Positions 10,535-21,043 of a stretch of DNA of 64,000 nt are shown piece by piece. The translations under genes and the position numbers were made by a program. Under the pieces are notes generated by a model. That model saw nothing but the letters and a program-made list of their open reading frames with translations, was not told the DNA's origin and ran no database searches. The first letter of the stretch is position 1. Every line of letters begins with the position of its first letter. The stretch is from Phreatobacter sp. (GTDB lineage: Bacteria > Pseudomonadota > Alphaproteobacteria > Rhizobiales > Phreatobacteraceae), in contig NZ_JALHMP010000001.1 in NCBI RefSeq assembly GCF_022843985.1, positions 62,001 through 126,000 on the forward strand. Direction: 5' to 3'.

Positions 10535-10687
10535 CGGAGATCTCCAGCGGCTGGGTTTATGGGTCGCTTCGGCGGGACTGGAAAGCCCCCCGGAGGGAGG
10601 ACGGCGGCGCAATCCTTGCTTGCGTGAACCGGGCGTCCCCATCTCTGCCTTTGACCGGCCGGTCGTCACCCTTTACCCATCATTGCC

Positions 10688-13600
10688 ATGGCCATTCTTG
10701 CGAAGCTGCATCACGTCACGCGATATCTCTACGACCGCCCGGTCATGCTGGGCCCGCAAGTGATCCGCCTGCGCCCCGCCCCGCACAGCCGCACCACCAT
10801 CCCGAGCTACTCCCTCAAGGTGCTCCCTGAGCCGCATTTCGTGAACTGGCAGCAGGACCCGCACGGCAACTGGCTGGCGCGCTTCGTCTTTCCCGAGAAG
10901 ACGACCGAGTTCTCGGTGACCGTCGACCTGGTCGCCGACATGGCGGTGGTCAATCCCTTCGACTTCTTCATCGAGAGCTATGCCGACACCTTCCCCTTCG
11001 CCTATGCGCCGGCGCTGGCCGAGGAGCTGGCCCCCTATCTCGCTATCGAGCCTACCGAGGCGCCGTTCGAGCGCTACCTCGCCGGGATCCCGCGCGGGCC
11101 GAAACAGACCATCGATTTTCTCGTTGCCCTCAATCAGCAGCTGCAGCAGGACATCCGCTACATCGTAAGGATGGAGCCGGGCGTCCAGACGCCCGACGAG
11201 ACCCTGGAGAACGCGTCGGGCTCCTGCCGCGATTCGGCCTGGCTGCTCGTGCAACTGGCCCGGCGTCTCGGCCTCGCTGCCCGCTTCGTTTCCGGGTACC
11301 TCATCCAGTTGAAGCCGGACCTCAAGGCGCTGGACGGGCCGGCGGGCACGGACAAGGATTTCACCGACCTCCATGCCTGGACCGAGATCTATATTCCCGG
11401 CGCCGGCTGGATCGGCCTCGATCCGACATCTGGGCTGCTCTGCGGCGAGGGCCATATTCCTCTGGCGGCGACGCCCCACTACCGCTCGGCCGCGCCGATC
11501 TCCGGCGCCGTCGAGCCGGCGGAGGTGTCCTTCGCGTTCGACATGCGCGTCGACCGGATCGACGAGCGCCCGCGCGTCACCGCGCCCTTTTCCGACGACG
11601 CCTGGCAGCGCCTGGACGCCCTCGGCGAGCGCGTCGATGCCGATCTCGTGGCCGGGGATGTCCGCCTCACCATGGGCGGCGAGCCGACCTTCATCTCCAT
11701 CGACGATTACGAAGGCGAGGAGTGGAACACCGCCGCCGTCGGACCGACCAAGCGGGACCGGGCCGACGCCCTCATCCGGCGGCTGCGCGACACATTCGCG
11801 CCCGGAGGCTTCCTCCATTACGGCCAGGGCAAATGGTATCCCGGAGAAAGCCTGCCGCGCTGGACCTTCGCCCTCTACTGGCGCCGCGACGGCAAGCCGG
11901 TCTGGCGCGACGAAAGCCTGATCGCCCGCGAGGCGGCGGCAACGCCGGCGACGATCGACGGCGCCGGGGCGCTCGCTGCAGGGATCGCCGAGAAACTCGG
12001 CCTCGACGGCGAGGCGGCGCTTCCCGCCTATGAGGACCCGGCGCACTGGGTGATCAAGGAGGCCGAGCTTCCGGTCAATGTCGATGCGCTCGATTCCAAG
12101 CTCGAGGATGCCGAGGCCCGCGCCCGCATCGCGCGCGTCTTTGCACGCGGCCTGACCCATCCCTCGGGCTATGTCCTGCCCATCCAGCGCTGGAACGCCG
12201 CACCGGCCAAATCCAACTGGATGACGGAGAAGTGGAAGCTGAAGCGCGAGAAGCTTTTTCTCGTGCCCGGCGACAGCCCGGTGGGCTACCGCCTTCCCCT
12301 CGCCTCCCTGCCCTATGTGCCGCCGGCCTCATATCCCTATGTCGTCGCCGCCGATCCCTGGACCGTGCCGGCCGACCTGCCCGATCCCCGCGAGATCGAG
12401 GGGCGGATAGCCCAGCGCGTCTCGGGCGAGCGCGAGCGCGAGGCGGACCGCACAGAGCAGGTCGAACAGGTCCTGACAGAGGACAATTCGGTCCGCACCG
12501 CTCTGGCCGTCGAGCCGCGCGACGGACGGCTCTGCGTCTTCATGCCGCCGACCGAGCGGCTGGAAGACTATCTCGAACTCCTGACCGCCACCGAGGCCAC
12601 CGCCAAGGAGCTCGGCCTCACCGTCCATGTCGAGGGCTATCCGCCGCCGACGGATCCCCGTCTCAACGTCATCAAGGTGACGCCCGATCCCGGCGTCATC
12701 GAGGTGAACGTCCACCCCGCCGCCTCCTGGCGCGACTGTGTCGCGATCACGCAAGGCCTCTACGAGGAGGCGCGGCTGGCGCGCCTCGGAACCGAGAAAT
12801 TCATGCTCGACGGCCGCCATACCGGCACAGGTGGCGGCAATCACGTCGTGGTCGGCGGGGCGCGGCCGGCCGATTCCCCCTTCCTGCGGCGACCCGATCT
12901 CCTGAAGAGCCTCGTCCTCTATTGGCAGCGTCACCCCTCGCTGTCCTATCTGTTCTCCGGGCTCTTCATCGGCCCGACAAGCCAGGCGCCGCGGGTCGAC
13001 GAGGCCCGCCATGACGGGCTCTACGAGCTTGAGATCGCCATGGCCATGGTGCCGAAGCCCGGCGAGGGCGATGCGCCCGCGCCATGGCTGGTGGACCGGC
13101 TGTTCCGCAACCTGCTGGTCGATTCCACCGGCAATACCCACCGCACCGAGCTGTGTATCGACAAGCTGTTCTCGCCCGACAGCCCATCGGGCCGGCTCGG
13201 CCTCGTCGAGTTCCGCGGCTTCGAAATGCCGCCCGACCCGCGCATGAGCCTTGCCCAGCAGCTGCTGATCCGCGCCCTCGTCGCCTGGTTCTGGAAGGAA
13301 CCGCAGGACGGACCGCTGGTGCGCTGGGGCACGGCGCTGCACGACCGGTTCATGCTGCCGCATTTCGTCTGGGAGGATTTTCTCGGCGTGCTCGGCGATC
13401 TCGGCCGCGCCGGCTATGCCTTCGACCCTGCCTGGTTCGAGGCGCAGTTCGAGTTCCGCTTCCCTCTGGCCGGCCAGGTCGACCATGCGGGGGTCCGCAT
13501 GGAGATCCGGCAGGCGCTGGAACCCTGGCACGTGCTCGGCGAGGAGGGAGCGATCGGCGGCACCGTGCGCTTCGTCGATTCCTCCGTGGAGCGCCTGCAG

Positions 13601-14008
13601 GTGCGGCTCGTCGGCCTGCAGCCTGAACGCCACACGGTTACCTGCAACGGCCGGCCGGTGCCGCTGACCGCCACGGGACGCAGCGGCGAGTTCGTCGGCG
13701 GCGTGCGCTACAAGGCCTGGCAGCCGCCGTCAGGGCTGCATCCGACCATCCCTGTCCATGCGCCGCTGACCTTCGACATCGTCGATGTCTGGGGCCGCCG
13801 CTCGATGGGCGGCTGCGTCTATCACGTCGCCCATCCCGGCGGCCGCAACTACGATACGTTCCCCGTCAATGCCTATGAAGCCGAGGCCCGCCGCCGCGCC
13901 CGGTTCCAGGATCACGGCCATACGCCGGGCCTGGTCGATCCGCCGCGCGGCGAACGGTCGGGGGAGTTTCCCGCGACCCTCGACCTGCGGCGTCCACCGG
14001 TGCATTGA
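10688..14008 (+). CDS. Transglutaminase-like domain fused to DUF2126 (predicted permuted glutamine-synthetase-like ligase)
   Basis: A 1106-residue cytoplasmic protein. Residues about 1-285 form a bacterial transglutaminase-like (TGc) domain with a complete papain-like triad: Cys180 in GSCRDSAW, His229 in DLHAWTEIY, Asp245 in GLDPTSG. The rest is DUF2126, with a conserved [11 protein letters not shown] motif at about 711-721. Comparative genomics of amidoligases (Iyer and Aravind's group, 2009) described a widespread predicted peptide-tagging system with a circularly permuted glutamine-synthetase-like ligase, a permuted ATP-grasp, an alpha-helical domain and an NTN peptidase. I recall DUF2126 as that ligase. 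First gene of a three-gene operon, 6 bp from the next start. Substrate unknown. Confidence 0.88.
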
Positions 14009-14014
14009 GACACC

Positions 14015-16516
14015 ATGACCTTCCGGAGCCAACGCACGACCGATCACCGCGCCGAGCGCATCCTGGCGATGCTGGCGCGCTATCAGCCGGTGCCGGGTGT
14101 CTATGACGAGATCCTCGATGAGAAGGGTGAACCGCGCGCGCATTGGAAGCCGGTGCTCGCCACCCTCGCCGATCTCGGGCCGCGGGAACTCGAGAAGCGT
14201 TTCGCCGGCGCGGACCGCTTCATGCGGGATTCCGGCGTCTATTACCGCGTCTATGACGACCCGCAGAGCGGCGAGCGGGCCTGGCCACTGGCCCATCTGC
14301 CGCTGGTGATCGCCCCCGACGAGTGGAAAGCCCTCTCGGCAGGCTTGCGCGAGAGAGCCGAACTGCTCGAACTCGTCGTGAAGGACCTGTTCGGTCCCGC
14401 CGATCTTGTGCGCGACGGGCTGGTCCCCGGCGCGACCATCGCGGGATCCCCGGATTTCCTGCGCCCGCTGGTCGGCACCCCGCCGCGCGGCGGCGCGCAT
14501 CTGCTCTACTATGCCGTCGATGTCGGCCGCGGCCCGGACGGCCGCTGGTGGGTGCTCGGCGACCGGGCCCAGGCCCCGTCGGGCGCCGGCTACGCGCTGC
14601 AGAACCGGCTCGCCATGGCGCGCTCGCTCCCCGAGATCTATCGCAACCTGCCGGTGGAGAGGCTCGCCGGCTTCTTTCAGGCGCTGCGCTCGGAATTCTC
14701 CTCGCATGCGACCGCGACGGATTCGCGCGTCGCGGTGCTGACGCCCGGGCCGCTCAACGAGACCTATTTCGAACATGCCTTCCTGGCGCGCTATCTCGGC
14801 TTCCTCCTGGCCGAGGGCGCCGATCTCACCGTGCGTGACGACACCCTCTATGTCCGCACAGTGTCGGGCCTGAAGAAGCTGGAAATGGTTTGGCGCCGCC
14901 TCGACGCCGATTTCGCCGATCCGCTTGAGCTCAATCCGCGCTCGCAGCTCGGCGTCGCCGGCCTCGTCCACGCCATCCGCTCGGGCAAGGTGACCCTGGC
15001 CAATGCGCTGGGATCGGGTGTGCTGGAGGCGCGATCCCTCCTCGCCTTCCTGCCCTCGGTCGCCCGCGCCCGCCTCGGCCGCGACCTCGCGATCCCGCAT
15101 GTCGCAACCTGGTGGTGCGGCCAGCCGCTGGAGCGTGGCGCCGTCATCGCCGATCTTGACTCCTTCGTGATCGCGCCGGCCTTCACCCAGACCATTCCCG
15201 GGCTGCTCGACGAAGGGGCGGTGCTGGCCTCCAGCCTGTCGCCGGAGCACCGCCTGCGGCTGGCCGAGGAAATCCGCCTGCGCGGATCGGACTTCGTCGC
15301 CCAGGAGGTCGTCAAGCTCTCGACCATGCCGGTCTGGAACGACGGCTATCTGGAGCCGCGCCCGTTCATCCTGCGCCTGTTCCTGGCGCGGGTGGGTGAC
15401 GGCTGGGAGGTGATGCCCGGCGGTTTCTGCCGCATCGGCGACCGGGTCGATGCCCGGGCCGTGACGATGCAGCGCGACGGCCGCTCGGCCGATGTCTGCG
15501 TCCTGGCTGAGGGGCCGGTCGCCGAGACGACGCTCCTGCCGACGCCCGACAAGATCGAACTGAAGCGATCGACCTCGTCCCTTCCCAGCCGCGCCGCGGA
15601 CAACCTGTTCTGGCTCGCACGCTATATGGAAAGGGCCGAGGGGACCCTGCGCCTCCTGCGCGCGCTCGGCGACCAGGTCGGCAGCGGCGAGACGACAGGG
15701 CCCGACATGCTCAAGCGTCTGGTCGATCTGCTGGTGACCTGGGAGGCCCTGCCGAAGGACACCGTGCTCACCGAGCCACAGGCAGTCGCTGCAGCCGTGC
15801 TGCATGGGCGCGCGCCGGGCGGGCTGCTGTCGCTGGCGCGGGCGGCGCATAATGCCGCCTCCGTCATCCGCGACCGGTTCTCGCCCGACGCCTGGAAGAC
15901 CATCACCGACATGGTCCATCTGGCGGAAAGCGACGATCGCCTCGAGGCCGGCGCCCTCGACCGGGTCGAGACCGGGCTCAGGCTTGCCGCCGTCTTTTCG
16001 GGCCTCACCCAGGAGAACATGAACCAGCTCATCGGCTGGCGCTTCCTGAAGATCGGCAAGCGGATCGAGCGGGCCCTGGCCATCTGCCGGTTCGGACGCA
16101 ATTTCGGCGACGCGCGGTCGGGGACGGCGGGGCTCGACCTGCTGCTGGCCCTGGCGGACAGCCAGATCACCTATCGGCGCCGCTATGTGATGATCGCCGC
16201 CCGGGCACCGGTGCTGGACCTCATCGTGCTCGATCCCAACAACCCCCGCTCCGTCGCCTTTCAGGTCGAGCGGATCGCCGACCATCTCGCCCACCTCCCC
16301 GACCATGCCGCCGACGGACGGCTGAACGTGCCGGAGAAGCTGATCGCCCGGACGCGTGTCGACCTGCAGACGGCGGATGCCCATACGCTCGACAGCAGAC
16401 AGATCCTCGCCATCGAGCAGCGGCTGATGGCGATCTCCGACGAGGTCTCCGAGCGTTACTTCACGCATCGCGACGGGGCGCCCCCCGTCGGTGCCGCCGC
16501 CAGTGATCTGTTCTGA
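14015..16516 (+). CDS. Circularly permuted ATP-grasp domain fused to alpha-E domain
   Basis: An 833-residue fusion of two proteins usually encoded separately. Residues about 1-480 are a circularly permuted type 2 ATP-grasp ligase (DUF404/DUF407), seen in MRDSGVYYRVYDD, HLLYYAVDVGRGPDGRWWVLGDRAQAP-type motif and LLDEGAVLASSLSPE. Residues about 525-833 are the all-helical alpha-E (DUF403) domain starting at SRAADNLFWLARYMERAE. ATP-grasp enzymes make an acyl-phosphate and join it to an amine; alpha-E is a helical partner of unknown activity. It starts 6 bp after the DUF2126 gene, and its TGA overlaps the next ATG by one base, so the three proteins are probably made together. No signal peptide. 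Confidence 0.9.
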   Translation: MTFRSQRTTDHRAERILAMLARYQPVPGVYDEILDEKGEPRAHWKPVLATLADLGPRELEKRFAGADRFMRDSGVYYRVYDDPQSGERAWPLAHLPLVIAPDEWKALSAGLRERAELLELVVKDLFGPADLVRDGLVPGATIAGSPDFLRPLVGTPPRGGAHLLYYAVDVGRGPDGRWWVLGDRAQAPSGAGYALQNRLAMARSLPEIYRNLPVERLAGFFQALRSEFSSHATATDSRVAVLTPGPLNETYFEHAFLARYLGFLLAEGADLTVRDDTLYVRTVSGLKKLEMVWRRLDADFADPLELNPRSQLGVAGLVHAIRSGKVTLANALGSGVLEARSLLAFLPSVARARLGRDLAIPHVATWWCGQPLERGAVIADLDSFVIAPAFTQTIPGLLDEGAVLASSLSPEHRLRLAEEIRLRGSDFVAQEVVKLSTMPVWNDGYLEPRPFILRLFLARVGDGWEVMPGGFCRIGDRVDARAVTMQRDGRSADVCVLAEGPVAETTLLPTPDKIELKRSTSSLPSRAADNLFWLARYMERAEGTLRLLRALGDQVGSGETTGPDMLKRLVDLLVTWEALPKDTVLTEPQAVAAAVLHGRAPGGLLSLARAAHNAASVIRDRFSPDAWKTITDMVHLAESDDRLEAGALDRVETGLRLAAVFSGLTQENMNQLIGWRFLKIGKRIERALAICRFGRNFGDARSGTAGLDLLLALADSQITYRRRYVMIAARAPVLDLIVLDPNNPRSVAFQVERIADHLAHLPDHAADGRLNVPEKLIARTRVDLQTADAHTLDSRQILAIEQRLMAISDEVSERYFTHRDGAPPVGAAASDLF

Positions 16517-17397
16517 TGCGCTACCAGGTCCGCCAGGTCACTGATTACAGCTATGCCCGCCCGGTGGCATTCGCTCAGCACGTGCTGCGCATCGTGCCGG
16601 TTGACCGCCCGGGCCAGACCGTCTCGCATTGCGATATCGCCATCACCCCGAACCCGGCCATGCGCCGCGACGACACCGACTTCTTCGGCAACCGGCGCAT
16701 CTTTCTCGATTTCGACCACCCGCACCGGGCCCTGACGATCGAAATGCGGGCGGACATCACCGTGGCGGGAACGAGCCGTCCGCTGCCCGGCATGGACCCG
16801 CCCTGGGAGCGCGTGCGCGAGACCGCCTTCGCCAGCGCCGACATGTCGCCGTCTTCGCCGGTACACGCGCTCTTCCCCTCGACCTACGTGCCGCGCGACC
16901 CGATGATCCGCGCCTATGCCAGCGCGTCATTCCCGCCGGGGCGGCCGGTTCTCGAAGCCGCCTTCGACCTGGCCAAACGCATCCGCGACGACTTCACCTA
17001 TGCGCCGGGCACCACCGATACCTCGACGCCGGCCGCCAAGGCCTTCGCCATGCGCCGTGGCGTCTGCCAGGACTTCACCCACATCATGATCTCGGGCCTG
17101 CGCGGCCTCGGCCTGCCGGCGGCCTATGTCTCGGGCTTCCTGCGCACGATTCCGCCCCCGGGCAAACCGCGCCTGGAAGGCGCAGACGCGACCCATGCCT
17201 GGGTGTCGCTGTGGTGCGGACCTGAACTGGGTTGGTGGGGGCTCGACCCCACCAACGGGCTGATCGTCGGCGAGGACCACATCGTGCTGGCCATCGGCCG
17301 CGACTTCGTCGACGTCGCGCCGAATGGCGGCGTGGTCATCGCCGCCGGTGACCATGACATCGCGGTGGCGGTGGACGTGAAGCCGCTGGGGGCGTGA
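16516..17397 (+). CDS. Transglutaminase family cysteine protease-like protein
   Basis: A 293-residue protein with an N-terminal beta region (Bact_transglu_N) and a TGc domain. The catalytic triad is intact: Cys184 in RRGVCQDFTH, His227 in DATHAWVSL and Asp244 in GLDPTNG. Such domains act mostly as peptidases or amide-exchange enzymes. Start ATG overlaps the preceding stop (TGATG). In the predicted tagging operon it could remove or transfer the peptide added by the two ligases. No signal peptide, so cytoplasmic. The NTN-hydrolase (proteasome-like) peptidase often found with these genes is not in this window. Confidence 0.9.
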   Translation: MRYQVRQVTDYSYARPVAFAQHVLRIVPVDRPGQTVSHCDIAITPNPAMRRDDTDFFGNRRIFLDFDHPHRALTIEMRADITVAGTSRPLPGMDPPWERVRETAFASADMSPSSPVHALFPSTYVPRDPMIRAYASASFPPGRPVLEAAFDLAKRIRDDFTYAPGTTDTSTPAAKAFAMRRGVCQDFTHIMISGLRGLGLPAAYVSGFLRTIPPPGKPRLEGADATHAWVSLWCGPELGWWGLDPTNGLIVGEDHIVLAIGRDFVDVAPNGGVVIAAGDHDIAVAVDVKPLGA

Positions 17398-17518: not shown

Positions 17519-18340
17519 ATGTCCCTGCTTCTGTCGCCGACCGCCATTATGGGACTTCCGGGAAAGGCCGCGCCGCAGCCGTTGCTCAGCGAACCGGATG
17601 AAGCGCCTCGCCACAGCGAATTGCTCAAGCGGCTGGGCATTCACAGCTGGTCCATCGACCTGAAGACCGAGCGGGTGCGCTGGGAGACCGTCGGTGCCAA
17701 CGCGCGGACCGTCGTCATCAAGGCGACGCTCACGGATCTGCTGAAGCAGGCCCATGACGAGGATGCCGCCAAGTTCCGCGCCCATCTGAAACAGGCGATC
17801 GATGCCGGCAGCGCAGGGCCCGATCGATTCCGCTTCGACGACCTCGACCATGCCGGCAGCGAGATCGAATCGGTCTGCGTGCTGAAATGGCTGTCGGGAC
17901 ACCCGGTGGTGGTAGGCCTCTATCGCAAATGTGAGAAGGAAAGGCGCCAGGCCGCAATGGTTGGCGCCTTGCGGACCAGTCTCGACACTCTCATCGCCGA
18001 ATCCACCAGCTGTATGGTTGTGCTCGCCCGCGACGGCACGATCCTCAACTGCAACGCCGCCTTCCTGAAGTGCCTCAATGTACGGGACCGGCGGATGGTG
18101 ATCCGCCAGAACGTCCTCGGACTGGTCGAGAGCCTGTCCGAACGGCTGGAAGCCATCATTCGCGGTGCGCTGCTCTCGAGCGAGGCGCTCGCCGGCCAGT
18201 CCGTCATGACCTTCTCGGGCGGCCAGGTGCGCAATGTCCGGTGGAAGGCTTTCGGAATCGGCTTCCTCCGCGGAGACGGAGCGACGCGGGTCTTCTCCTT
18301 CGACCTGCGCCGTGTCGAGGGCGACGACCTCCTCGACTAG
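17519..18340 (+). CDS. PAS-domain protein without output domain
   Basis: A 273-residue protein not matched to a named family. Two PAS-like units are suggested: about residues 35-140 (HSWSIDLKTERVRWE, a divergent sensory fold) and about 160-270 (TLIAESTSCMVVLARDGTILNCNAAFLKCL, a clearer PAS signature). No kinase, GGDEF, HTH or methyl-accepting domain follows, so it may sense a ligand or redox state and act through a partner. Start: ATG at 17519 has a strong Shine-Dalgarno (GAAGGGAGGG) 7-8 bp upstream; the longer frame adds 16 residues before it. It lies 121 bp downstream of the ligase operon on the same strand and may be independent. Confidence 0.7.
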   Translation: MSLLLSPTAIMGLPGKAAPQPLLSEPDEAPRHSELLKRLGIHSWSIDLKTERVRWETVGANARTVVIKATLTDLLKQAHDEDAAKFRAHLKQAIDAGSAGPDRFRFDDLDHAGSEIESVCVLKWLSGHPVVVGLYRKCEKERRQAAMVGALRTSLDTLIAESTSCMVVLARDGTILNCNAAFLKCLNVRDRRMVIRQNVLGLVESLSERLEAIIRGALLSSEALAGQSVMTFSGGQVRNVRWKAFGIGFLRGDGATRVFSFDLRRVEGDDLLD

Positions 18341-18403
18341 CCCGCCCGTCCCCAGAAAGCGCGCCAAGACGCCGGCAGGGATCCGGATGCCGGCCGGCCC
18401 GCC

Positions 18404-19291
18404 TCAGGATTCAAAGGTCATGCTCAGGCGCCGCCGAAACTCCGCATAATCACGCACGACGACCATCCGTGATGGCACCACCAGATGGGCGATGGTCGCC
18501 TCGTGGGCGCCAATCCAGATGGGAATATCCTCCGGCAGCCCGCGGTCCAGCCAGACCAGGTCTTCCTGCAGGGAACCGCCGGGCACGCTGTGCACGGCAC
18601 TGATGACGAGGAGCGCGGCCGCGGACTCGGCCACGTCGACGGCAAGCGCGCGCGCCGGCATTCCGGCACCGAAATAGATCATGCGATGGCCGAGTGATGC
18701 GGCGAGATAGGCGCCGGCCAGAAGGCCGAGCTCATGGCGCTCATCGCCGAGGGTGGCGAAGGCGATCGGACGGCGATGGGCCGCAGGCGCCAGGGCGCTG
18801 GTGGCGGCGGTGAGGATGTCCCGCGCCTTGGCCGACAAGCGGTGCTCGCCGCCGACCCCGAGCTGGCCGTCCTGCCAGCGCTGACCGATATAGCGGACCG
18901 CATGGCCATAGACATCGACGGCCAAGGCCGGTGGGGATGCGGCGAAGACGAAGCGCAGGACCATGCCGAAGGCATCGACGTCGCAGTCGTCGACAGCCCG
19001 TTCGAGCTTGAGGACGATGTCCCGGTCGAAGGCACCGGCGCGGGAGATCGCGGGCTGCAACTGCTTCAGCTCGGCGATGGTCAGGCCGCGCAGTTCGGAC
19101 AGCCGATGCCCGACGGCGATCAGATCCTTGACCAGCATGAGCCGCTCGACATCCTCGGCCGAATAGAGCCGATGACCGCCGACCGAACGAGACGGTGTGA
19201 TCAGCGCGTGACGCGATTCCCAACTACGCAGGGTCGAGACGTTGACGCCCGTGAGCTGCGATAGCCGCGATATGTCGATGACCCTTCTCAT
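18404..19291 (-). CDS. CarH/LitR-type MerR regulator with B12-binding photoreceptor domain
   Basis: A 295-residue transcription factor with an N-terminal MerR winged helix (about 4-72, [19 protein letters not shown]) and a C-terminal cobalamin-binding module (about 90-290). Two diagnostic motifs are intact: W139-x9-E149-H150, which in CarH contacts the adenosyl group, and E184-x-H186-x-x-G189, whose His is the lower axial cobalt ligand. In known CarH proteins, dark AdoCbl-bound tetramers repress DNA and light breaks them. The residue after the Trp is Gln140, where Thermus CarH has His132, the ligand of the light-exposed state. Start: ATG at 19291; the longer frame adds 43 unlike residues. Divergent from a PAS chemoreceptor. 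Confidence 0.85.
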
Positions 19292-19379
19292 GGGGTGCCC
19301 CGGACGCCGTTCAAATATACAAAAGCCGATGCGCGATTCTGCATGACCCTCATGACCGCTCCGCTCGCCGCGCAGCATC

Positions 19380-19411
19380 TGTACAGGTTCATACTGCACA
19401 ACGAATACACA
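19380..19411. promoter_or_regulatory. Candidate CarH-type operator repeats in the divergent intergenic region
   Basis: Within the 276-bp region between the CarH-like gene and the chemoreceptor gene there is a TGTACA palindrome (19380-19385). Two TnnACA units, TGCACA (19395-19400) and TACACA (19406-19411), follow exactly 11 bp apart. Described CarH operators contain tandem 11-bp repeats of the form nTnnACAnnnn. A separate perfect 11-bp inverted repeat CACAT-A-ATGTG lies at 19467-19477. Function is inferred from spacing and location. Confidence 0.4.
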
Positions 19412-19567
19412 TTTTACCACAGGAGTTGGACTGTCCCCGAGGAGTGCGCGCTGGTTGTCGTAACGTCACATAATGTGGTTTTTTGCGCCCGTTCGATTTA
19501 TATTTTGTTTAATTGCGACAGCGATGAATGGCGCCAGGATGTACGCCAATACCAACCGGGAAACGTG

Positions 19568-21043
19568 ATGACGCTGTTCCGTAACGACGCTTCTAACAAA
19601 CTCGCAGCCATTGACCGCTCGCAGGCGGTGATCGAATTCGAACCCAACGGCAAGATCATCACGGCCAACGAGAATTTCCTGAAGACGGTCGGCTATCGGC
19701 TCGACGAGATCCGCGGACAGCACCACTCGATGTTCGTCGCTGCCGACGAGCGCGACAGCCATGAATATCGTCAGTTCTGGGACAATCTTCGCGCCGGCAA
19801 GTTCCAGGTCGCGGAGTACAAGCGCATCGGCAAGGGCGGCAAGGAGGTCTGGATCCAGGCCTCGTACAATCCGGTGATGGATTCCCGCGGCCGGGTCTAC
19901 ATGGTCGCCAAATATGCGACCGACGTCACCGAGCAGAAGCTCCGCAGTGCCGACATCGAGGGACAGCTTGCCGCCATTCACAAGGCGCAGGCGGTCATCG
20001 AATTCGACCTCGATGGCAAGATCATCACGGCGAACGAGAACTTCCTCGGCGCCGTCGGCTATGGCCTCGACGAGATCCGCGGGCGGCACCATTCGCTGTT
20101 CGTCGCGCCGGCGGAAGCGCATTCCAACGAATACAAAGCCTTCTGGGCCTCCCTGGCCCGCGGCGAGTTCCAGGCAGCACAGTATAAGCGTATCGCCAAG
20201 GGCGGCCGGGAGATCTGGATTCAGGCGACCTACAACCCGATTCTCGACATGAATGGCAAGCCGTTCAAGGTGGTCAAGTTCGCCACCGACATCACCGCCA
20301 TGATCAAGGAGCAGGAACGCCGCGGCAATGTGCAGCGTCAGATCGACGGCGATCTGGGCAGCATCGGTGAAGCCGTATCCCGCGCCAAGCATGAGGCGAC
20401 CCAGGTCGCCGCCGCCTCGATCCAGACATCGGGCAATGTCCAGGCGGTCGCCGCAGGTGCCGAAGAGCTGGCCGCTTCCGTCGGCGAGATCAGCCGTCAG
20501 GTCACGAGCGCCCGGGAGATTTCCGGTGGCGCGGTCGAGCAGGCGTCGCGGACCGGCGAGATCGTTTCGGGCCTGTCCTCCGCCGCTGCGCGGATCGGCG
20601 ACGTGGTACAGTTGATCAACAACATTGCCGCACAGACCAATCTCCTGGCCCTCAACGCCACGATCGAGGCGGCGCGCGCAGGCGAGGCCGGCAAGGGATT
20701 TGCGGTGGTCGCAGCCGAGGTCAAGAGCCTCGCCACACAGACCTCGCGCGCCACCGAAGAGATCGGGGCCCAGATCGCCTCGGTCCAGGCCTCCACCGAG
20801 GGCGCGGTCAGCGCCATCGGCGACATCTCCACGACGATCATGCGGATCAGCGAGATCTCGACGGCCATCGCCACGGCGGTCGAGGAACAGAGCGCGGTGA
20901 CCGCGGAGATGTCATCGAACATGCGCGTGGCCGCCGAAGGGGTCCAGGCCATCTCCAGCAGCATCAACATGATCGCCCGGTCGTCCGGCGAAATCGACGA
21001 GGCGACCGCCAAGGTCCGCACCGCGTCGCGCTCGCTCGCCTGA
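19568..21043 (+). CDS. Soluble methyl-accepting chemotaxis protein with two PAS domains
   Basis: A 491-residue chemoreceptor with no transmembrane segment. Two tandem PAS domains (about 8-115 and 130-238) are near-duplicates: both contain SQAVIEF or [33 protein letters not shown] and an EYKRI/QYKRI segment followed by WIQA. The C-terminal methyl-accepting signalling domain (about 250-491) has the hairpin tip [25 protein letters not shown], which binds CheA and CheW. It resembles cytoplasmic energy or redox sensors (Aer-like). Start: ATG at 19568; the longer frame reaches back across the intergenic region and gives non-conserved sequence. Divergent from the CarH-like regulator, so expression may depend on light or B12. 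Confidence 0.9.

Follow-up and report, generated by a model that had tools for sequence, protein, structure and literature searches.

The stretch analysed here, called the window below, is 64,000 nucleotides of a Phreatobacter sp. contig (NZ_JALHMP010000001.1, positions 62,001 to 126,000 of the forward strand). At window positions 10688-17397 it carries a three-gene operon, its genes numbered 1, 2, and 3 in plus-strand order, whose products belong to families of the amidoligase/peptide-tagging system linked to Anbu, a proteasome-type N-terminal nucleophile (NTN) hydrolase. That system was reportedly predicted by Iyer et al. in 2009. Gene 2 is at the centre of this account: its ATP-grasp domain looks, from its sequence, like a conserved pseudoenzyme, and the operon that contains it looks switched on under nitrogen shortage. 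The features of the operon are as follows:

10605..10620, plus strand: sigma-54 (-24/-12) promoter-like site CGGCGC-N5-TTGCT, 83 base pairs (bp) upstream of the first ATG, score 9/11
10688..14008, plus strand: gene 1, transglutaminase (TG)-like domain fused to DUF2126, 1106 amino acids (aa); Pfam
10688..11425, plus strand: TG part of gene 1, aa 1-246, triad C180-H229-D245; Pfam, triad kept in relatives
11513..14005, plus strand: DUF2126 domain of gene 1, aa 276-1106, predicted amidoligase of the glutamine synthetase (GS) superfamily; Pfam, AlphaFold2 model, Foldseek
14015..16516, plus strand: gene 2, apparent pseudo-ATP-grasp fused to Alpha-E, 833 aa; Pfam, alignment
14300..15436, plus strand: circularly permuted ATP-grasp domain of gene 2, aa 96-474, fold kept; Foldseek
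14558..14572, plus strand: degraded metal motif of gene 2, G182-D183-R184-A185-Q186 replacing E-D-N-x-R; alignment
15164..15223, plus strand: degraded phosphate loop of gene 2, aa 384-403, VIAPAFTQTIPG replacing VVKEVHGSGGYG of the genome's own standalone ATP-grasp; alignment
15581..16462, plus strand: Alpha-E domain of gene 2, aa 523-816; Pfam, 218.7 bits
16516..17397, plus strand: gene 3, second transglutaminase-like protein, 293 aa, triad C184-H227-D244; Pfam

Pfam bears out the gene make-up that an earlier reading of the sequence (the original prediction) had proposed, namely TG-DUF2126, permuted ATP-grasp with Alpha-E, and a second TG. Gene 1 matches Bact_transglu_N, Transglut_core, and DUF2126 (1344.9 bits), gene 2 matches CP_ATPgrasp_2/1 (443.6 bits for CP_ATPgrasp_2) and Alpha-E, and gene 3 matches Bact_transglu_N and Transglut_core. 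The claimed spacing of 6 and -1 bp also agrees with the coordinates: genes 1 and 2 are 6 bp apart, and genes 2 and 3 share 1 bp. Because the third-position GC of 0.86-0.87 across the three frames fits, they are taken as real genes; long antisense frames opposite the operon are the expected product of such G+C-rich genes. Counts of sigma-70 promoters and terminators were no higher than in shuffled sequence, and an Rfam scan gave no match.

The arrangement is more than chance; it is a conserved unit. Among loci related to gene 2 (the best 80 of at least 577 confirmed stretches), DUF2126 lies directly upstream of gene 2 in 69 of the 70 with contig room, and a TG lies directly downstream in all 79 with such room. 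Gene 2 is present in all 12 genus genomes searched, the own genome and 11 others. In a sample of 249 genomes of the phylum the system is widespread, with Alpha-E in 132 and DUF2126 in 71. A standalone Alpha-E is also found in all 71 DUF2126 genomes (the chance figure of 1e-25 ignores relatedness), and it lies at most 15 kb from DUF2126 in 39 of them. Around DUF2126, the fused gene and a second TG occur in 32 of 35 phylum loci; two loci (L156, L169) are without them, and in L158 DUF2126 sits at a contig end. In L156 and L169, both of family f25, DUF2126 is grouped with standalone ATP-grasp, Alpha-E, TG, and Anbu, and the fused gene is not there. Locus L171 carries on one strand a six-gene row of ATP-grasp, Alpha-E, TG, TG-DUF2126, fused ATP-grasp/Alpha-E, and TG, without Anbu; five of these genes were confirmed by Pfam, the fused gene being assigned from locus comparison alone.

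The ATP-grasp part of gene 2 retains its fold. Foldseek places the gene 2 model (pLDDT 89.5) among ATP-grasp proteins: 3n6x ranks first (E 2.5e-30, TMt 0.87), followed by glutathione synthetases and a glutathionylspermidine synthetase. The residues expected to hold Mg-ATP are nevertheless gone. Gene 2 shares 32% alignment identity with the standalone ATP-grasp of its own genome, and the metal-motif stretch that reads EDNARTPSG in the latter reads GDRAQAPSG in gene 2. Residue counts, numbered as in the own standalone protein, come from aligning 62 standalone with 124 fused proteins, all of them distinct. Proteins were assigned to the two classes on similarity and on whether Alpha-E is in the same frame; classes set by architecture instead give the same picture after 23 truncated fused proteins are recognised in the standalone class. 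E160, N162, R164, K368, G374, G375, G377, and D428 are each found in 62/62 standalone proteins. The corresponding counts among the 124 fused proteins are 1 for E160 (L166), 0 for N162, 1 for R164, 10 for K368, 6 for G374, 6 for G375, 39 for G377, and 0 for D428. Substrate-side residues are kept in the same proteins: S167 in 118, R176 in 124, E234 in 124, R276 in 117, and R430 in 122. The replacement motif [GSA]-D-R-x-Q is itself conserved, in 99/124. N162 is presumably a metal ligand.

Roles for these positions come from glutathione synthetase. An excerpt of PMC2845819 gives Asp130, Glu146, Glu386, and Glu442 as binding the Mg ions of the yeast enzyme, Ser153 (Ser151 in the human enzyme) as touching the substrate, and human Lys364 as binding phosphate. 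The spacing of E160 and S167 is +7, as for yeast Glu146 and Ser153, and a serine at +5 is unmatched; at the Glu386-like position, 372, just 22/62 standalone proteins have E. E234, R276, R430, and K368 appear to map onto glutathione synthetase residues as well. Gene 2 lacks both the Mg ligands and the phosphate-binding residues of a catalytic ATP-grasp while its substrate-side residues stay, which gives it the look of a conserved pseudo-ATP-grasp; on the missing Mg-ATP residues we reject it as an ordinary active ligase. The original prediction had read the system as looking active and had named a missing ATP site in the ATP-grasp part as evidence against itself. Activity of both ligase-type proteins is not supported: DUF2126 is plausibly an active GS-like amidoligase, but the ATP-grasp half does lack its Mg-ATP residues.

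Gene 2 is not a product of decay, because fused and standalone proteins are split by one branch, dN is low relative to dS, the gene occurs genus-wide, and the replacement motif is conserved. The split has an SH-aLRT of 100 with the motif columns removed, in a quick tree of 52 of 133 fused and 62 standalone proteins in which three long rows are unsure. Compared with one 93%-identical relative, gene 2 has a synonymous divergence (dS) of 0.626 and a non-synonymous divergence (dN) of 0.043 and, in this single pair, is under purifying selection. Since the Mg-ATP-binding residues are missing while the fold and the substrate-side residues are kept, the Alpha-E/ATP-grasp fusion may be a conserved pseudo-ligase whose role is that of a substrate-binding scaffold or a regulator.

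DUF2126 is the likely catalyst of the operon. The best PDB fold matches of its AlphaFold2 model (pLDDT 80.5, pTM 0.83) are 1tt4 (E 1.5e-3, titled predicted glutathione synthase), the gamma-glutamylmethylamide synthetase 9qur, and many glutamine synthetases, with low TM-scores. We take 1tt4 to be a GCS2-type (YbdK-like) protein. The comparison with glutamine synthetases that the original prediction had suggested thus returns GS-type folds first, although at weak scores. The fold and the Pfam description 'putative amidoligase' favour, but do not prove, a GS-like protein. Mean column identity is 55% for DUF2126 (44 proteins) versus 44% for gene 2 (43 proteins).

Both TGs carry the Cys-His-Asp triad of the transglutaminase/papain-like superfamily at the residues originally given. 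The triad is complete in all 118 distinct DUF2126-fused TG domains and in all 114 distinct relatives of the second TG; in the canonical-operon TGs, H and D are found in 34/34 and C in 31/34 (the groups were assigned by best similarity).

The original prediction was right that no NTN peptidase is adjacent to the operon, and the genome search it proposed does find one on another contig of the same genome. On contig C12 (L002/L004), a standalone intact ATP-grasp, Alpha-E, and TG lie in a row. About 1.6 kb from this canonical operon lies a divergent Anbu gene, with other open frames between; it was found both by this proximity and by protein search:

C12:59868-60617 (L004 15866-16618): Anbu (NTN hydrolase), match to PDB Anbu 5loy at E 3e-84

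A whole-genome PF00227 search had left HslV as the only NTN hydrolase of the genome, a result overturned by Anbu on C12. Anbu was missed by that search though Pfam scores it at 26.6 bits, above the cut-off; searching genomes by family can overlook genuine members. With one Anbu protein as query, Anbu was found in 85/249 phylum genomes and in 42/71 DUF2126 genomes, leaving 29/71 with no match. Since the listed completeness of 14 of these 29 is 99% or more, the DUF2126 set does not seem to need Anbu. The 29 genomes are also the reason why the TGs remain candidates for a releasing or transferring step, much as the original prediction had cast these cysteine-protease-like domains as a possible tag-removing or tag-transferring activity. 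A survey of 61 loci for neighbour groups recurring in at least 4 found Anbu in 25/61. Six other groups searched with Pfam were a sensor kinase (9 loci), an ABC-transporter ATPase (7), a ComEC-type protein (5), a LysR regulator (4), an RND transporter (4), and one group without a family (4); the remaining groups look like antisense frames of operon genes.

Upstream of gene 1, the promoter-like site was scored against the model TGGCAC-N5-TTGCW with a threshold of 9 of 11. The window site alone is not significant, as 12 such sites occur in the 64 kb on both strands. It is, however, conserved within the genus: CGGC[GC]C-N5-TTGCT, which has the GG and GC of a sigma-54 promoter at -24/-12 with conserved spacing, stands amid otherwise diverging sequence in 11/11 upstreams (window and L309-L318); in the twelfth genus genome the contig starts inside gene 2 and there is no upstream. 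Sites are also enriched more widely, in upstream sets that lack independence because their genomes are related. They occur in 22/113 DUF2126 upstreams (own included) versus 82/3390 shuffles, 18/652 other open frames, and 3/113 reverse strands, and in 19/45 standalone ATP-grasp upstreams versus 30/1350 shuffles, 13/353 other frames, and 0/45 reverse strands. The genome encodes a sigma-54 factor. Between the promoter-like site and the start codon, two more blocks, around TTTGAC and TTACC, are conserved in the genus (window 10610-10688 and L309-L318).

Published nitrogen-response data agree with the promoter-like site as a nitrogen switch. According to an excerpt of PMC5491218, the Burkholderia cenocepacia H111 cluster I35_5080-83 is transcribed in an NtrC-dependent manner and is down in an ntrC mutant; its genes are listed there as DUF404/407, DUF403, TG, and a 'large protein containing transglutaminase-like domain'. 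From this description and the gene order of L171, I35_5083 is probably TG-DUF2126. In Pseudomonas putida, both PP_2685 (beta subunit of a bacterial proteasome) and PP_2688 (a permuted ATP-grasp) are higher on nitrate than on ammonium (PMC8050072, excerpt).

Membership in the predicted Anbu-linked system, as originally claimed, is borne out by the co-occurrence of its families: DUF2126 stands with TG, ATP-grasp, and Alpha-E in one neighbourhood, and permuted ATP-grasp, Alpha-E, TG, DUF2126-type amidoligase, and NTN peptidase families are all in the genome. The window operon differs from that system in its ATP-site-less fused paralogue and its sigma-54 promoter-like site, the intact set and Anbu being at another locus. 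With the canonical four-gene Anbu operon (ATP-grasp, Alpha-E, TG, Anbu) it has the first three families in common, as well as a likeness to the nitrogen response reported for Pseudomonas (PMC8050072, excerpt); in contrast, it contains DUF2126 and no Anbu, and its ATP-grasp is fused and without the ATP site. Gene 2 resembles glutathione and glutathionylspermidine synthetases in fold and apparently in substrate-side residues, but not in Mg-ATP residues. DUF2126 has its best, if weak, fold matches in the GS/GCS2 superfamily, but no detectable sequence-profile similarity to it.

Our reading, with a rough probability of 0.55, is that nitrogen limitation induces a system of the predicted Anbu/amidoligase kind that makes and releases an amide, and that this operon is its accessory half. 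The three genes would be transcribed by sigma-54 RNA polymerase, probably together with NtrC. DUF2126, as a GS-superfamily-like ligase, would spend ATP on an amide or isopeptide bond, most likely with a gamma-glutamyl or carboxylate substrate, and the fused TG and the separate second TG would hydrolyse or transfer this bond via their cysteines. The ATP-grasp/Alpha-E fusion, with its glutathione-synthetase-type fold and substrate-side residues, would serve as substrate-binding scaffold or regulator, and catalytic ATP-grasp chemistry would come from the standalone ATP-grasp on C12 with its own Alpha-E, TG, and nearby Anbu. An excerpt of PMC6376114 reports that the ATP-grasp of the Yersinia bercovieri Anbu operon releases phosphate from ATP. 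Of the steps in this reading, the loss of ATP-site residues and the promoter are the strongest, and the DUF2126 reaction and the scaffold role the weakest, the scaffold role because gene 2 occurs without DUF2126 and DUF2126 without gene 2.

Several observations weigh against this reading. Position 147, D in 62/62 standalone proteins, is still acidic in 124/124 fused ones (D in 73, E in 51), and D161 is kept in 119/124, both being possible metal-site acids; the loss of ATP binding by gene 2 is itself read from the alignment. For DUF2126, Foldseek gave no PDB match to the model at E<=0.001, sequence searches of the PDB gave none, and its profile matched neither GS nor GCS2 (hhalign Prob 0.2 and 0.1). 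Sigma-54-like sites at threshold are absent from 91/113 DUF2126 upstreams, and no 9-of-11 site lies between the own canonical operon and Anbu (L004 14000-16000). Four f25 genomes with DUF2126 (G036, G064, G076, G212) gave no fused match, and gene 2 is without a DUF2126 match in eight genomes listed as 100% complete and in the incomplete G149. The two are separable; therefore, a dedicated DUF2126 scaffold is not forced. In the Anbu pull-down described in an excerpt of PMC6376114, no specific partner was found among the Y. bercovieri operon proteins.

In the nine genomes with gene 2 and no DUF2126 match, E160, N162, K368, and D428 are lost in 9/9 and R164 in 5/9, and S167 is kept in 3/9. The fused pseudo-ATP-grasp of the loci without DUF2126 (L234-L242) has its second TG in 8/9, L240 being the exception. 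In L236, a LigD-type DNA ligase (Pfam) adjoins the fused gene; similar frames lie in L238 and L239, for which no family search was made.

The same families could instead serve protein tagging, in which DUF2126 and the ATP-grasp would label proteins with an amino acid or peptide; removal of this tag, or degradation of the protein that carries it, would fall to the TGs or Anbu. This proposal, which PMC5666114 and PMC6376114 (excerpts) cite from Iyer et al. 2009, accounts for predicted amidoligase and ATP-grasp folds standing alongside proteasome-like and cysteine-protease-like partners. We consider it unlikely here: no tag-like small protein was recognised, although no systematic search for one was made, 29/71 DUF2126 genomes have no Anbu match, and Anbu is described as without peptidase activity on proteasome substrates (PMC6376114, excerpt). 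A nitrogen switch fits metabolism equally well or better, and the promoter evidence with the published nitrogen data favours nitrogen/peptide-amide metabolism at least as much as a protein tag. It is possible, if still somewhat improbable, that a soluble peptide amide is made and broken for nitrogen storage or amine salvage. DUF2126 would act as gamma-glutamylamide synthetases or glutamate-cysteine ligase do, and the intact ATP-grasp would play the part of a glutathione or glutathionylspermidine synthetase. Such small-molecule gamma-glutamyl/peptide metabolism suits the fold matches of DUF2126 (1tt4, gamma-glutamylmethylamide synthetase) and of gene 2 (glutathione/glutathionylspermidine synthetases), the nitrogen control seen in the promoter-like site and published responses, and a metagenome correlation of DUF403/404/407 with urea-metabolism domains (PMC3597751, excerpt). 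It is less easily squared with the Yersinia ATP-grasp, whose phosphate release neither glutamate nor glutamine stimulated (PMC6376114, excerpt), or with the neighbours: no amine-metabolism gene was identified among the recurrent groups of the 61 loci, of which only some were identified, and those identified include the ABC-transporter ATPase (7/61) and RND transporter (4/61), both common families.

A further reading, which we regard as quite doubtful, is a glutathione-synthesis-like nitrogen-starvation cycle. In it a glutamate-cysteine-ligase-like DUF2126 would act first and the intact, glutathione-synthetase-like ATP-grasp second, the TGs would release the gamma-glutamyl or isopeptide conjugate, and the dead fusion would be a dedicated substrate sensor or carrier that times the cycle. 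That the fused ATP-grasp is an enzyme with altered chemistry, using another cofactor or binding nucleotide without metal, would explain the conserved replacement motif (99/124), the purifying selection, and the retention of substrate-side residues and some acids. The metal-motif Glu and Asn, the phosphate lysine, the G-loop, and D428 are all lost together, however, and we hold this to be improbable.

A literature search did not find the word DUF2126, and titles and abstracts among the matches listed described no dead ATP-grasp paralogue of an amidoligase/Anbu system; the cited Anbu/amidoligase papers, in the excerpts used, name no established substrate. The system was predicted before, and the dead subunit and nitrogen switch make its job testable. 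The question open since 2009 becomes directly testable because the sigma-54 footprint names a growth condition for a product search, and a conserved pseudoenzyme paralogue changes which protein to assay for ligase activity.

Downstream of the operon, the window encodes a MerR-type regulator with weak CarH similarity (18404-19420, minus strand; 79.6 bits, cut-off 400). It is flanked by PAS-domain proteins (17519-21043, plus strand), one of which is a chemotaxis receptor.

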